From Bacteroidales bacterium (GTDB lineage: Bacteria > Bacteroidota > Bacteroidia > Bacteroidales > WCHB1-69): a stretch of 64,000 bases of DNA. Shown here piece after piece: positions 21,759 to 29,361 of this stretch. The stretch's first letter is position 1. The number at the start of each line of letters is the position of its first letter. The stretch lies in the NCBI GenBank assembly GCA_024400635.1, contig JAKSMI010000001.1, positions 1 through 64,000 of the forward strand, read 5' to 3'. The notes beneath the pieces were generated by a model. The model did not search any database. It was not told the origin of the DNA and worked only from the letters and a program-made list of their open reading frames with translations. A program made the position numbers and the translations under genes.

Positions 21759-24035
21759 TTACATTATATCATAAGGACAAGGTTCTTTGCCCATTTTTGT
21801 AATTTTCTTTCGTTTAAAAGTATAATTCAGAGAAAATTCCAAACCACCACGGCCTTTATTACCTTTCATCAATGTTGAAACCGTCACATCATAACTCACA
21901 CCAAGTCTCAGATTCTGCCAATCGAAGAAAAAATCCACGATAACCGCGTCATTCCATCGATAAAAGACGCCGCCGCCGAGGGAAAAAAGTGTGGTGTAGC
22001 TGTTTTTCATCTGGAAATATTCAACATTCGCACCGAAAACGACTTCGTAAAACTGCTTTTGAAATTCGGCATAAACAGCGGGTTGCAGTGCTAAATCAGA
22101 CACCAGTCGAAAAGACGAATTAAAATGGGCAGCAATGTTAATCGGCAAGCGTGTATCCACATCGCCGAACGACTGTTTGGGCTGTGTCAAATGCTTTGCA
22201 CTGACGCCCAAGAGATAACGGTCGGTTTTGTTGGGCGAGAAACTCCAGAGCAGGCCCGCCCCGCAATCAAAAAAAAACACCTTATCTCGACCAAAACTCT
22301 CACTGATGGGATTGTCGGCATCGAAAATCTGATGGTAAAACTGTTCATCGAAAGTCATCTGGGCATAATCGATGCTTCGCTGCATAAAACCCGCATAAAC
22401 GCCCACACCGATTTTATGGCGGCCACGACGTCCCAACGCATTGAGGTAAGATAATGTGATGATGGGATGCACACTATTGTAATGCGAATCGCCTGTATAA
22501 TCACAATTTACCAATACGCCAACACTTAATTGTCTTCGATACTGTTGGTTTCGCACAATTGGCGCATCGGCATAAAAGGTAAAATGCACGTATGGTTTGG
22601 TTAAGGAGAGCCACTGCGTTTTCTGATTGGCACCAACACGAAAAAGTCCGTCGTAACAACCCGCTTGCGCGGGATTCACCTCAACGGGAGCTTGGTAAAA
22701 CTGGGAATAGTGCACATCCTGCGCAAAGCAAAAGCTAAAACAAAATAGCGAAATGACCAGCAGAATAATATATTTGTACTTGTCCTTCCAGCAACTTTTC
22801 AGATAGCGTCGAAGCTCGCTTTCGCGAGCGTTACTGCCTGGTTCGTAAAACTTCTTTCCACTGATGGCGGTAGGCAGAAATTCCTGTTCTGCGAAATTAT
22901 GTTCATAATCATGGGCATATTTGTAACCTTCATGATAGCCGAGTTCCTTCATCAGCTGCGTTGGCGCATTGCGTAAGTGAAGTGGAACAGGCAGGTCACC
23001 AGTCTTTTTCACCCAACCAATAGCTTCATCTATAGCCATATATGCCGCATTGCTCTTCGGCGAGCTGGCAAGATAAATGGCAGTCTGGGACAAGACTATG
23101 CGTGCTTCTGGCATGCCAATATGATGCACTGCCTGAAAGCAATTGTTGGCCAGCAAAAGTGCATTGGGGTTAGCGCAACCGATATCTTCCGCGGCAAGGA
23201 TAATCATACGTCTGGCGATAAACAAGGGGTCTTCTCCAGCGACAAGCATACGCGCCATCCAGTAGACCGCCGCATTGGGATCGCTGCCGCGCAACGACTT
23301 GATGAAAGCAGAAATGATATCGTAATGCTGTTCGCCTTTCTTGTCATAAATCGCCAGGTTTTTCTGAATAATTTTGCCAACCAACTCGTTAGTGATGACC
23401 ATTTCGCCATTTTCCGGAGCAGTAGCCATCGCCACCAATTCAATGGCATTAATCAACTTGCGAGCGTCACCACCAGAAATACGCATCAGGGCTTCCTGTT
23501 CTTGGAAAACGACTTTGCATTGCAGCTTCTCCTGCAAATATTTTTGCGCTGACGCTATAATTTGTTCCAAATGCCTTCGTTCCAGAGGTTTAAGAGTATA
23601 AACCTGACAGCGAGAAAGCAAAGGCGAAATAACCTCGAAAGAAGGATTTTCAGTGGTGGCACCTATCAAAGTAACGATGCCGCGTTCCACTGCTCCCAGA
23701 AGCGAATCTTGCTGAGATTTACTGAAACGATGTATTTCATCAATGAAAAGGATGGATTTTCCATCTGACTTTTCCGCCTTGTCCAAAATTTCACGGATAT
23801 CTTTCACACCGGAGCTAATGGCACTAAGCATATAGAAATCAGCACCTGTCACTTCAGCAACAAGGAGGGCGAGTGTCGTTTTGCCCACACCTGGCGGTCC
23901 CCACAGAATCATCGAATAGATTTTGTCACTTTCAATGGCCTGGCGAAGCACGCCACCCTCCCCCATCAGGTGCTCTTGACCGATGTACTGATCCAGGGTT
24001 TTGGGTCGCAATATCTCTGCAAGCGGTTGATTCAT
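21759..24035 (-). CDS. In-frame fusion: RarA AAA+ ATPase + PorP/SprF outer membrane protein
   Basis: One 758-codon frame encodes two unrelated proteins. Residues 1 to about 421 are a complete RarA/MgsA replication-associated recombination ATPase (GPPGVGKT 46-53, FIDEIHRFSKSQQD, GATTENPSFEV, and the Bacteroidota-type end RRYLKSCWKDKYKY). Without any stop, residues about 418-438 read as a signal peptide (KYKYIILLVISLFCFSFCFA then Q), followed by a PorP/SprF barrel (DVHYSQFYQAPVEVNPAQAG to the end, about 320 residues). No ATG lies at the join, so separate translation would need a non-ATG start. It may be a real stop-codon loss or a sequencing error. Neighbours are a PorV-like gene 2 nt upstream and a PorE-like gene 2 nt downstream. 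Confidence 0.85.
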   Translation of the reverse strand: MNQPLAEILRPKTLDQYIGQEHLMGEGGVLRQAIESDKIYSMILWGPPGVGKTTLALLVAEVTGADFYMLSAISSGVKDIREILDKAEKSDGKSILFIDEIHRFSKSQQDSLLGAVERGIVTLIGATTENPSFEVISPLLSRCQVYTLKPLERRHLEQIIASAQKYLQEKLQCKVVFQEQEALMRISGGDARKLINAIELVAMATAPENGEMVITNELVGKIIQKNLAIYDKKGEQHYDIISAFIKSLRGSDPNAAVYWMARMLVAGEDPLFIARRMIILAAEDIGCANPNALLLANNCFQAVHHIGMPEARIVLSQTAIYLASSPKSNAAYMAIDEAIGWVKKTGDLPVPLHLRNAPTQLMKELGYHEGYKYAHDYEHNFAEQEFLPTAISGKKFYEPGSNARESELRRYLKSCWKDKYKYIILLVISLFCFSFCFAQDVHYSQFYQAPVEVNPAQAGCYDGLFRVGANQKTQWLSLTKPYVHFTFYADAPIVRNQQYRRQLSVGVLVNCDYTGDSHYNSVHPIITLSYLNALGRRGRHKIGVGVYAGFMQRSIDYAQMTFDEQFYHQIFDADNPISESFGRDKVFFFDCGAGLLWSFSPNKTDRYLLGVSAKHLTQPKQSFGDVDTRLPINIAAHFNSSFRLVSDLALQPAVYAEFQKQFYEVVFGANVEYFQMKNSYTTLFSLGGGVFYRWNDAVIVDFFFDWQNLRLGVSYDVTVSTLMKGNKGRGGLEFSLNYTFKRKKITKMGKEPCPYDIM

Positions 24036-25908: not shown

Positions 25909-26358
25909 TTAATCTTGGACGAGGCGCACGGATCAACCGATGCAACGGTTGCTGCCGTACACGCTCAACTCGCTCGAAGTGAAGTACAGGCACCACGCGT
26001 ACTCGGAGTCGTTGGGCGTGGACGACCAATAGCTACCGCCGGCACCCACGCTGCTCACCTCACCATTGCAATAGCGGTTGCCCGCAGCGGGCAGGGTGAT
26101 GGACTGACCGTTCGGCCCCGTCACCTTGTAACCGCTGCCCGTCCACTGCCATGTGCATGCGTCTTTCAGTTCTTCCAACTATTCCTTGGTAGGGAGTTTG
26201 CTTCCAAAAGAACGGACGGCTGCATCATAATCATAAAATCCGCTTTCATTCTTGTCTTTCCATTTCGTTCCGCTGGGAAGCCCCAAATCTACATATTCTT
26301 GTGCCTTGATTTGCAGTGCGAAAAGGCACAAAACGCTTAATAGGAGAATCTTTTTCAT
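25909..26358 (-). pseudogene. FISUMP-domain secreted protein with two internal stop codons
   Basis: A 150-codon reading frame with signal peptide (MKKILLLSVLCLFALQIKA, then Q) and one complete FISUMP domain (Fibrobacter succinogenes major paralogous domain; YVDLGLPSGTKWKDKN, LPTKE, GSYWSSTPNDSEYAW, SVRLVQD end). Codon 60 is TAG (26179-26181) where the family has Gln in LPTKEQLEELKD, and codon 142 is TGA (25933-25935) just before SVRLVQD. Everything else is well preserved, so the lesions look recent or the gene is read through. It begins 25 nt after the radical SAM gene on the same strand and may have been the last gene of that operon. Confidence 0.75.
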
Positions 26359-26382: not shown

Positions 26383-27480
26383 TCACATTAGGTTCTTTTC
26401 TTTCATTCTTCGCTCAATGTGGGCGAAGATTTGTTTGTATGCAGGGCATAAGAGGGTCTTTCTTTTGAAATCGCCATTGCGGAGGTAGCTGTCGTGGAGG
26501 CATCCTCCGTGACAGATGTTGTACCATTTGCAGTCAGAACATCCAACGGCGGCAAGATGCTCTGTTCGTTTGTATATTTCACTTTGCTTGACACGTGGCA
26601 GTATCTCCATAAGTGTTTCATGATGTAAGTTGCCGTATGCGTATTGTCTCAAGCCATCATTGCAGAAACGGCCACAAGGCATCACATCGCCAGTGGGTGC
26701 TATAGCCAAGAAATTGTCCTGACAATTGCGACTGAACATACATCCCGTCGTGCGACCTGTGGCAATGTTGCTGGCAATTTCTACGAAATTAGACTCTGTT
26801 ATCCTGCCTTCGTGATCATCAAACCACAGGTCAAAAAGTTCAACACACATCTGGGCATACTCTTGCGCAGTGATACCATATTCGTTACAATTTTGTTCTG
26901 CCTCACCGGAGATAAAAAGAGGGTTGAACTTGAAATTCAACGATTGCTCTTTCATAAACTGGTACAACTCTGGAATATGTCCGATGTGTTTGCGGCTACC
27001 CACTACAATGCAGCCAGGGTTCATTCCTCGTTGGCGACATAAGGCGAATTTCTCCATAATAATGTCAAATGTTGGCTGCCCTTTGGCACCCACTCTTTGT
27101 TTGTCGTGGATTTCCTTTATGCCATCCAACGAAAACCCCAGCCTGATTTTGTATTGAATGAGTATATCCAAATATTCTGCGTCTATCAGTGACAGATTCG
27201 TTTGCATTGATTGACGAATATCGAACCCCGTCAATTCTTGTTCGATAAAAGCAAATATTGTACGGTAATTATCCTTGCCCCATAACAAAGGTTCACCGCC
27301 ATGCCAAATAATAGCAAGTTTACTACGGTGTGTGGTTGCCAGCATCTCTTTTATTTGCAGTATAACACGTTTGGCAAACCCAATGTCAAACATATCAGTA
27401 TTTGCCTTTGTGTCATTGCTCAAATAACAGTATTTGCAGCGGAAGTTACAGGCATAGGTTGGTTTGAGAATGATAGTCAT
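26383..27480 (-). CDS. Radical SAM/SPASM peptide maturase
   Basis: Iron-sulfur enzyme predicted to modify a ribosomally made peptide. The 365-residue protein has the radical SAM motif CNFRCKYC (Cys11, 15, 18), the GGEPLLW motif, a core barrel to about 220, and a C-terminal SPASM region. That region has a regular series of cysteines (CMFSRNC, PCGRFC, CSDCKWYNICHGGC, CPAYK) able to bind two auxiliary 4Fe-4S clusters. It resembles anaerobic sulfatase-maturase-like and RiPP-maturing enzymes, but there is no sulfatase nearby. It begins 6 nt after a 64-residue Tyr-x-Asp peptide gene, strong evidence that the peptide is its substrate. The exact chemistry cannot be read; aromatic-ring crosslinking is one possibility. 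Confidence 0.88.
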   Translation of the reverse strand: MTIILKPTYACNFRCKYCYLSNDTKANTDMFDIGFAKRVILQIKEMLATTHRSKLAIIWHGGEPLLWGKDNYRTIFAFIEQELTGFDIRQSMQTNLSLIDAEYLDILIQYKIRLGFSLDGIKEIHDKQRVGAKGQPTFDIIMEKFALCRQRGMNPGCIVVGSRKHIGHIPELYQFMKEQSLNFKFNPLFISGEAEQNCNEYGITAQEYAQMCVELFDLWFDDHEGRITESNFVEIASNIATGRTTGCMFSRNCQDNFLAIAPTGDVMPCGRFCNDGLRQYAYGNLHHETLMEILPRVKQSEIYKRTEHLAAVGCSDCKWYNICHGGCLHDSYLRNGDFKRKTLLCPAYKQIFAHIERRMKEKNLM

Positions 27481-27486
27481 TGAAAT

Positions 27487-27681
27487 TTAGTTGGGTTCCT
27501 CGCTATTCGTGTCATAATAATCACCGTATGGTTCATCAATATAATCAGCGTATGAATCTCCGTGAACATCGTAAGAGTTAAACGAATAAGTAGGATTTTT
27601 TTTAATACTGATTCTATCTAAAATTACTTTCTGAGAGAAAAAGAGGTTACTGGCTTCTCCTATGATTATTTTATTCATCAT
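27487..27681 (-). CDS. Putative RiPP precursor 1, four Y-x-D repeats
   Basis: 64-residue peptide immediately upstream of the radical SAM gene (6-nt gap). The N-terminal part resembles a leader (MMNKIIIGEASNLFFSQKVI, then LDR). The C-terminal third is almost only Tyr, Asp, Gly, Ser and acidic residues, with four Tyr-x-Asp triplets: Y44-A-D46, Y47-I-D49, Y52-G-D54 and Y55-Y-D57. It ends in EEPN. The S-Q-K-V-I-L segment (16-21) matches A-Q-E-V-I-L in precursor 2. No known precursor family recognised. Function as substrate is inferred from position, size and repeats. Confidence 0.72.
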   Translation of the reverse strand: MMNKIIIGEASNLFFSQKVILDRISIKKNPTYSFNSYDVHGDSYADYIDEPYGDYYDTNSEEPN

Positions 27682-27699
27682 ACATTATTTGTTTTTCAT

Positions 27700-28212
27700 T
27701 TATGCTTCAAGTTTTGGATTAAAAGTATTCTTTTCAAGGTCATATCCCTTTATCCACCATGGTCCAGATGTCTTCTTTGTCCCATACCGATTCTCAAAAA
27801 CGATATTTAGTTCAATTTTTACAACTTTCTCTTTTTTTAGTTTAATCACAGATAGTCTTTCGAATGGCAAAACAATAGCATTGGTTTCTGTAGTATTGGC
27901 TTTTACAATAGGTAATCTTTTTTCTTCGCGATATACAATATTATTGTCCCCGTCCAGCAATTCGGCAAAGCATGTCACATTGTATGCAGCAAATATCTGA
28001 GAGTCATTGACAATGTGAATATTTCGTTTCATCATTTGCCGTTTTAGTTTTTTCCCATTAATATTCGTAATGGAGTCATCAACCATATTTTGATTATAAC
28101 AGGCAAGTTTGATTTCAGGCTCAAACTTTTCAGCTGGAATAACCCAAACAACAAAGGATGCGATAGCACCTATTATGATTGATGTTGCTATTGATATGAT
28201 TATTGTACTCAT
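27700..28212 (-). CDS. Membrane-anchored protein of the RiPP locus
   Basis: 170 residues with a single N-terminal membrane helix (about 5-25, rich in Ile/Val/Ala) and a predicted outward-facing mixed alpha/beta domain that includes NVTCFAELLDGDNNIVY and VVKIELNIVFENRYGTKK. No protease, transporter or known family motif is visible. It lies between the two precursor-like genes, 12 nt after precursor 2 and 18 nt before precursor 1, so it is part of the same transcript. It may be a partner, immunity or processing protein, but that is a guess from context. Confidence 0.65.
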   Translation of the reverse strand: MSTIIISIATSIIIGAIASFVVWVIPAEKFEPEIKLACYNQNMVDDSITNINGKKLKRQMMKRNIHIVNDSQIFAAYNVTCFAELLDGDNNIVYREEKRLPIVKANTTETNAIVLPFERLSVIKLKKEKVVKIELNIVFENRYGTKKTSGPWWIKGYDLEKNTFNPKLEA

Positions 28213-28224
28213 ATTAACAATCTA

Positions 28225-28362
28225 TTAATTCCAATCTCCACTTGAATCGCCATATCCACCATCATCAGAATAGTCTGAATAATCTTCGAAAGCATTTTCT
28301 ATTTCTACTTTATCGTCCATATTTTTCAGAATAACTTCTTGCGCATATGTTATTGCATCCAT
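28225..28362 (-). CDS. Putative RiPP precursor 2, three Y-x-D repeats
   Basis: A 45-residue gene found by reading the gap between larger genes. Leader-like start MDAITYAQEVILKNMDDKVE, then a Tyr/Asp/Gly/Ser-rich tail with Y28-S-D30, Y31-S-D33 and Y37-G-D39, ending G-D-W-N. The A-Q-E-V-I-L motif (7-12) matches S-Q-K-V-I-L in precursor 1, and both tails share Tyr-x-Asp spacing and G-D-S. A later ATG (residue 15) would drop this motif, so the first ATG is preferred. The next gene starts 12 nt downstream. The resemblance to precursor 1 is the main evidence that this short frame is real. Confidence 0.72.
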   Translation of the reverse strand: MDAITYAQEVILKNMDDKVEIENAFEDYSDYSDDGGYGDSSGDWN

Positions 28363-28439: not shown

Positions 28440-28811
28440 TTAGTTCATGTTAAAGTAATAATAGCTTCCTTTATATGACACATAATACTGATAATGATTA
28501 TTGCTTGTCCAAGGTGCAGACCGGTTATAATTCGAATTTTCTCTGACAACACATTCAGTTTGGTTTTCATCATCTACAACAGCATAATAAGAGTTACACA
28601 TCCCTGCGGATTGATATACTTTAATTGATATAGACTTTACAGCTTTGCCTCCCAAGCCGCACGCGGCATTACCTTGCCAGTAAATTGGTGTATGGCTGTT
28701 AATTTCATTACATAAAATACTTTTTTCTTTCACAATAGTGAATGAGCTGAATACCATTGCGCTAGTCATTATCGCAATAATCACTGCGATTGTCATAAAT
28801 GTTTTTTTCAT
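28440..28811 (-). CDS. Small secreted Cys-containing protein
   Basis: 123-residue precursor with a hydrophobic signal segment (about 5-25) and a mature part holding four cysteines (C34, C51, C72, C87) and a Tyr/Asn-rich end (NNHYQYYVSYKGSYYYFNMN). No family recognised. It lies upstream of the RiPP genes on the same strand, separated from precursor 2 by a hairpin. It may be an independent exported protein or part of the locus. Confidence 0.6.
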   Translation of the reverse strand: MKKTFMTIAVIIAIMTSAMVFSSFTIVKEKSILCNEINSHTPIYWQGNAACGLGGKAVKSISIKVYQSAGMCNSYYAVVDDENQTECVVRENSNYNRSAPWTSNNHYQYYVSYKGSYYYFNMN

Positions 28812-29003: not shown

Positions 29004-29312
29004 TCAGTCGCTTAACAATTCTTTCAGCCTCTCCATTTTCTCCGCAGAAAAATCTTCCAAAGAGAGGCTGAAATTCACTTGTGTGTGTGAGTAGGGGAGC
29101 CCGTACAGTTGCATCGCATCTGCCAGAAAGTTGTGCTTCAGTATTTTGGAAAGACGAGATAGCAGTTCCACATCAACGCTGCTGCGGCGGAAGATGGTAT
29201 AGACATTGGTGCGTTCGCAGTGTAGCCGCCGAGCCAGCTCCGCCACACTCATACCGCTTTCATCGAACACCGATTTCACCAATTTGCCGATATGTACTTC
29301 CCTTTCCTGCAT
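29004..29312 (-). CDS. XRE-like helix-turn-helix regulator
   Basis: DNA-binding protein of 102 residues from the chosen ATG (MQEREVHIGKLVKSVFDESG). The helix-turn-helix is in MSVAELARRLHCERTNVYTI, followed by the Bacteroidota-typical DVELLSRLSKILKHNF and a short C-terminal helix. An in-frame start at 29396 would run into the structured leader and is less likely. Target genes are unknown; a palindrome at its own promoter suggests autoregulation. Confidence 0.75.
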   Translation of the reverse strand: MQEREVHIGKLVKSVFDESGMSVAELARRLHCERTNVYTIFRRSSVDVELLSRLSKILKHNFLADAMQLYGLPYSHTQVNFSLSLEDFSAEKMERLKELLSD

Positions 29313-29361
29313 TACCAATTTGTCATAAACCATAAAAAAAGCGTGGAATCTTTTCCTTGCC

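Follow-up and report, generated by a model that had tools for sequence, protein, structure and literature searches.

A candidate RiPP cassette in Bacteroidales that pairs a SPASM radical SAM enzyme with peptides tiled by aromatic-x-acidic triplets

PqqE makes a Glu-Tyr C-C bond in which an acidic side chain is joined to the Tyr ring. An enzyme for Tyr-x-Asp substrates has been described as well: YxdB (WP_226048651.1), as summarised in PMC11002830 (citing Sugiyama et al. 2022), is a Tyr-x-Asp maturase that forms C3(Tyr)-Cbeta(Asp) cyclophanes. ChlB (PDB 9gm3, 9gmc) is termed a radical SAM multiple cyclophane synthase (Ruel et al. 2025, as cited in PMC12636437). In a preliminary description of one Bacteroidales locus, a SPASM radical SAM enzyme was paired in the manner of a RiPP system with two precursor peptides, and no described family was known to have their exact Tyr-x-Asp repeat. 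This novelty claim fails for the chemistry, because triceptide chemistry is known and Tyr-x-Asp is, according to PMC11002830, a described substrate motif. We propose, as the likely reading, that the locus is a RiPP-type cassette in which the enzyme, B, installs three-residue cyclophanes on the two peptides, A1 and A2, by linking an aromatic ring to the Cbeta at i+2.

Layout of the cassette and its enzyme

The cassette lies in the window, by which we mean the 64,000-nucleotide stretch of DNA that was analysed. Its genes are all on the minus strand and are transcribed in the order A1 (28225-28362, 45 aa), M (27700-28212, 170 aa), A2 (27487-27681, 64 aa) and B (26383-27480, 365 aa), with 6 nt between the end of the A2 stop codon and the start of B. 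A1 combines the leader TYAQEVILKNM with a core holding FED and the Tyr-x-Asp triplets YSD28, YSD31 and YGD37; A2 combines the leader FFSQKVILDRI with HGD and the triplets YAD44, YID47, YGD52 and YYD55. The coordinates and residue numbers of the preliminary description were confirmed, as were its 6-nt gap, its radical SAM motif in B (Cys11-x3-Cys15-x2-Cys18) and its count of four Tyr-x-Asp triplets in A2 and three in A1; absent from it were M, between A1 and A2, and the FED and HGD triplets. Beyond M, two more genes belong to the cassette in the window and in L040, which comes from another family: a Cro/CI-like HTH gene (29004-29333, minus strand) and a gene for a small secreted protein, S (28440-28811, minus strand). 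Both loci have the same six genes in the order HTH, S, A1, M, A2, B. No transporter, exporter or protease genes were found within the conserved cassette.

B is a putative SPASM radical SAM peptide maturase, with Pfam matches to Radical_SAM (9e-17) and SPASM (1.7e-5). Its set of SPASM cysteines is complete (C247, C253, C269, C273, C314, C317, C323, C327 and C345) and is conserved in relatives. There is no N-terminal RRE domain, and CxxxCxxC already starts at residue 11. The search against family models, suggested earlier as a check, thus placed B in these two broad families, but B missed every curated NCBIfam cutoff and neither A1 nor A2 matched anything in Pfam or NCBIfam above cutoff. The best NCBIfam score of B was for DynA (NF041298; 281 bits, cutoff 450), followed by the sulfatase maturase model TIGR03942 (215 bits, cutoff 349). 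Scores for GrrM/OscB (118.7 bits, cutoff 310), XyeB (108.3, cutoff 450), FxsB (92.6, cutoff 370), YhhB (143.5, cutoff 445) and AmcB (126.9, cutoff 425) were lower still, and the cutoffs of these five define single families inside the triceptide class, not the class itself; PapB gave 128.7 bits (cutoff 340). The same NCBIfam families matched all 18 aligned B proteins. An AF2 model of B (pLDDT 89) had anSMEcpe (TM 0.82-0.85) and ChlB (TM 0.83-0.86) as its nearest solved structures, and the match to PqqE was weaker (TM 0.58). At position 270 of B, which aligns to Asp277 of anSMEcpe, the catalytic Asp that comes after the SPASM PC motif, all 18 aligned B proteins have Gly.

M has a single N-terminal transmembrane helix followed by a beta-sandwich (Ig-like) domain. 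Relatives were found in 14 of 18 loci, being missing from L030, L035, L039 and L044, and in L005, L007, L036 and L037 the M gene runs 1-4 nt into the start of B. Because most members carry basic residues after the helix, the positive-inside rule places the beta-sandwich domain probably on the cytoplasmic side. M had no match above cutoff in Pfam or NCBIfam, and its fold model (pLDDT 74) returned generic beta-sandwich matches only, none below E 0.008, so we assign it no function; we infer that it is a candidate membrane-tethered partner of the cassette.

The remaining genes are more loosely attached. S (123 aa, signal-type N terminus) had no match above cutoff in Pfam or NCBIfam and has homologues at the same place in L040 and L006, and we treat it as an accessory of weak association. 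The HTH gene, with a weak HTH_26 match and homologues 5' of the precursor at L030, L040, L043 and L044, is a possible regulator of the cassette. Flanking secreted proteins also recur, weakly CsgG/FlgO-like in one locus group and fibronectin/Lcl_C-like in another; since they track subclades, they were left out of the system. Secreted proteins weakly like CsgG/FlgO/LpoB stand 5' of the precursor in L007, L033, L034 and L037 and downstream in L036.

Two other features of the window are recorded here. Immediately 3' of B, a gene for a secreted protein (25933-26358, minus strand), with EYVDLGLPSGTKW near its start, is interrupted by a single in-frame TAG at 26179-26181. Farther away, a single 758-aa frame (21759-24035, minus strand) joins an AAA ATPase, presumably RarA-like (first ~420 residues), to a secreted or outer-membrane protein that is presumably PorP/SprF-like. 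A signal-type segment lies mid-frame, and both names were assigned by reading the sequence. A fusion of a cytoplasmic ATPase to a secreted protein is unusual. The frame is intact and free of stops across the genus: eight of nine genomes have it at full length (the seven others 80-82% identical to the window copy), and in the ninth (G006) it is split between contigs.

Conservation of the precursors in other Bacteroidales

We found 18 further B loci, all in Bacteroidales, at 40-70% identity, and several of these came from ruminant gut metagenomes. Together with the window this gives 19 loci, two of them (L004 and L006) from the same genome; L008 starts inside B, leaving 18 with readable upstream DNA. 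In all 18, window included, B is adjoined by at least one small precursor gene with a common leader and an acidic, aromatic core that varies, as expected of a RiPP. The precursors are ~45-64 aa long and lie just 5' of B or M-B; L040 and the window carry two each. Their leader consensus is TxAQxxILKRI, also written [T][FY]AQxxIxxRI. The pairing of a SPASM enzyme with precursor peptides is therefore supported, and the co-occurrence in other genomes that had been suggested as a check is present; B homologues lacking such peptides, which would have spoken against it, were not found among the 18 readable loci.

To recognise A1 and A2 independently of the window, we built a leave-window-out profile from 17 precursors of other loci and used it to scan the window's full set of 1,133 stop-to-stop frames. 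A1 (E 7e-10) and A2 (E 4e-9) were matched and no other frame was, and the best E value reached with this profile by decoys (1,000 A1/A2 shuffles plus shuffled frames) was 0.25. With a profile of the leader only, A1 was still matched (E 0.001) and A2 gave just E 2.3, so A2 is recognised by leader and core jointly. Run on the whole of the window's own genome, the precursor profile returned A1 and A2 and no further precursors. In informative precursor pairs dN was below dS, or dS was saturated, with a near-identical pair as the sole exception. Given the profile matches and dN < dS, the A1 and A2 frames are real genes under protein-level selection, the conservation that the preliminary description had asked for.

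In a tree, the B proteins form one clade separate from the outgroups (moderate support, 81/94). The window B groups with genomes of another family, whereas a B of the same genus as the window (L030, 52% identity) is placed elsewhere, beside L044, and B occurs in about 1-4% of the genomes searched; this placement and sparse occurrence suggest, from sequence data, that the cassette has spread horizontally. A plasmid search for B gave only matches of 24-26% identity, the annotated ones being sulfatase maturase or DarE. Decay or assembly errors may account for the frameshift in the B gene of L006, the broken B of L043 and the short M of L033.

The precursor profile gave no match at 12 other, mostly SPASM radical SAM loci (L011-L015, L048, L057-L062). 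The distant matches within the phylum, L057-L062, were rejected, as they belong to other families; one of them, L058 (another Bacteroidota family), has a large radical SAM gene of the SPASM type and, just 5' of it, a 105-aa frame with repeated His-x-Asp triplets (HTD, HGD). At L011/L045 (G002, of the window's genus), a different SPASM radical SAM enzyme, 25% identical to B, stands next to two adjacent peptides. These carry SRRDALKRM at the N terminus, and their Tyr-x-Asn/Asp triplets number 12 and 15. No NCBIfam peptide or maturase family was reached above cutoff by these peptides or their enzyme, and they are possibly a second repeat-tiled precursor system.

The triplet unit and the proposed reaction

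In the A1 and A2 cores, Asp follows Tyr at +2 seven times against 2.0 expected, a count reached by 0 of 5,000 composition-preserving shuffles, and the same shuffles put +1, +3 and +4 at or under expectation. The pattern extends beyond Tyr and Asp. Across 16 non-redundant cores, whose starts were placed at the F-x-D/F junction where one exists and otherwise by hand, an aromatic residue (F/W/Y/H) is followed by D/E at +2 in 90 cases against 38.7 expected (z 11.6, which overstates the evidence because the core sequences are related), and +1, +3 and +4 are rarer than expected. Tyr-x-Asp accounts for 47 of these (18.3 expected), and F/W/H followed by D/E at +2, without Tyr, is found 31 times against 13.5 expected. 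The core of L007 is an example, tiled as [FID]n[WSE][YNE]s[YDD][YND]c[HGD][YYD]ae. The conserved unit is aromatic (F/W/Y/H)-x-acidic (D/E), with its two residues at the fixed i, i+2 spacing of triceptides. The earlier proposal that each Tyr-x-Asp is a modification unit, giving up to seven, thus stands for the i to i+2 spacing, the likely unit, and has to be widened in composition, so that the window holds up to 9 units (4 in A1, 5 in A2).

By analogy with the known reaction of enzymes that form three-residue cyclophanes, the bond type and the following steps are proposed. A1 and A2 would serve as precursors with a common N-terminal recognition segment and an acidic C-terminal core of aromatic-x-Asp/Glu triplets, and B would bind the leader without an RRE domain. 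A 5'-deoxyadenosyl radical in B would abstract H from Cbeta of the acidic residue, and this carbon would then bond to the ring of the aromatic residue two positions before it, with a loss of 2 H per triplet. Repeated along the core, in what we infer to be a processive manner, this would yield three-residue cyclophanes strung into a rigid polyanionic chain.

The structural likeness to ChlB, the Gly in place of Asp277, the +2 rule and the bond published for YxdB together support the ring-to-Cbeta bond. Three observations count against it. B scores best for DynA, which makes products other than plain three-residue cyclophanes. Triplet tiling is visible in most subclades and is weakest in L030, L035 and L044, which have few triplets. 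Seven precursors, none from the window (L006, L007, L033, L034, L036, L037 and L043), carry in their C-terminal part an invariant DCHGDYYD that contains their only core Cys, and pure cyclophane formation gives no account of this element. The A1 and A2 cores have no Cys, which excludes for the window peptides the thioether that core Cys residues form in sactipeptides and ranthipeptides (PapB, SCIFF); some relatives hold one Cys.

B might instead mature A1 and A2 without an aryl-to-Cbeta C-C bond, for instance by forming a Tyr-O ether or a bond between Glu/Asp and Tyr with the geometry seen in PqqE, by epimerisation, or by oxidising Tyr or Asp. SPASM radical SAM enzymes carry out reactions of all these kinds. 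The variable triplets and DCHGDYYD leave room for more than one of them, the top score of B is for DynA, and DarE forms an ether link, as reported in PMC9055067. We nevertheless regard this alternative as unlikely: the spacing is fixed at +2, with +1, +3 and +4 depleted, as an i to i+2 ring-to-Cbeta bond requires, and the ether in particular is disfavoured because the triplets extend to F and W, which are incapable of a phenol ether. It is very improbable that B is an enzyme like the anaerobic sulfatase maturases, with the peptides as bystanders or regulators. TIGR03942 is its second-best family and anSMEcpe its best solved structure, yet the score lies under the cutoff, the position of Asp277 is Gly in 18 of 18 proteins, no sulfatase was recognised in our reading of the genes listed around the loci, and peptides adjoin B in every assessable locus.

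A further alternative bears on novelty and is compatible with the mechanism, namely that the locus is a plain member of the described Yxd triceptide family, of which YxdB is the maturase, and that only the host is new. The Tyr-x-Asp motif, of which A1 and A2 together hold seven, and the enzyme class are in common. No YxdB model stood among the 25 best NCBIfam matches listed for B, however, and triplets in the cores here also start with F, W or H and finish with D or E, so we consider plain membership possible though doubtful. Returning to three-residue cyclophane formation, we tentatively suggest a stronger form of it, in which a B of relaxed choice (Phe/Trp/Tyr/His; Asp/Glu), sequence-distinct from the YxdB family, might zip up nearly all of the core, leaving a ladder of cyclophanes that follow one another directly and number at most ~8-9 per peptide. 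The rod-like polyanionic product, with phenol and carboxylate side by side as a possible metal-binding surface, would be handled at the inner membrane by M.

Comparison with described systems

Three things appear to be new: the clade of enzymes with their leaders, the tiling of cores by mixed aromatic-x-acidic triplets, and M, which has no counterpart among the families searched here (Pfam, NCBIfam, structures). The clade of B itself may already be known by way of YxdB, with which it was compared by description. It adds a group of putative maturases, hosted by ruminant and gut Bacteroidales, that none of the libraries searched (Pfam, NCBIfam and solved structures) covers. As the predicted natural substrates vary the aromatic residue and the acid under one spacing rule, they would provide a ready series for studying substrate tolerance and processivity in cyclophane-forming radical SAM enzymes, and the cassette would be a source of highly constrained peptides.

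Like the enzyme of the Yxd triceptides, B is a SPASM radical SAM protein with a Tyr-x-Asp unit and an i to i+2 relation, as judged from the description of YxdB and not from its sequence; unlike Yxd as described, the cores here carry many tandem triplets of F/W/Y/H with D/E, some loci have two precursors, and M is membrane-anchored. The triceptide maturases OscB/GrrM, XyeB, FxsB, YhhB and AmcB share with B the fold, the SPASM domain and aromatic-x-residue triplets in the core, but B reaches only 90-145 bits against cutoffs of 310-450 bits, their motifs are WxN, FxN, HxR and so on, and their leaders differ. ChlB, solved with its leader peptide bound and credited with several cyclophanes per substrate in the account of PMC12636437, resembles the B model closely in structure at ~21% identity, and partners an alpha-ketoglutarate hydroxylase domain that is absent here. 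Of the DynA (dynobactin) and DarE (darobactin) maturases, DynA gives the top NCBIfam score of B, although it stays below 450 bits; the precursors from which the fused bicyclic antibiotics are made are unlike those here, and the conserved cassette is without transporter genes. With anSME, B shares the fold and the SPASM cluster layout, whereas it differs in its Gly for Asp277 and in the lack of a recognised sulfatase among neighbour genes. As in PqqE, the bond proposed for B would connect the Tyr ring with the side chain of an acidic residue, but in PqqE the acidic residue comes before Tyr, the spacing is larger and a single bond is made.
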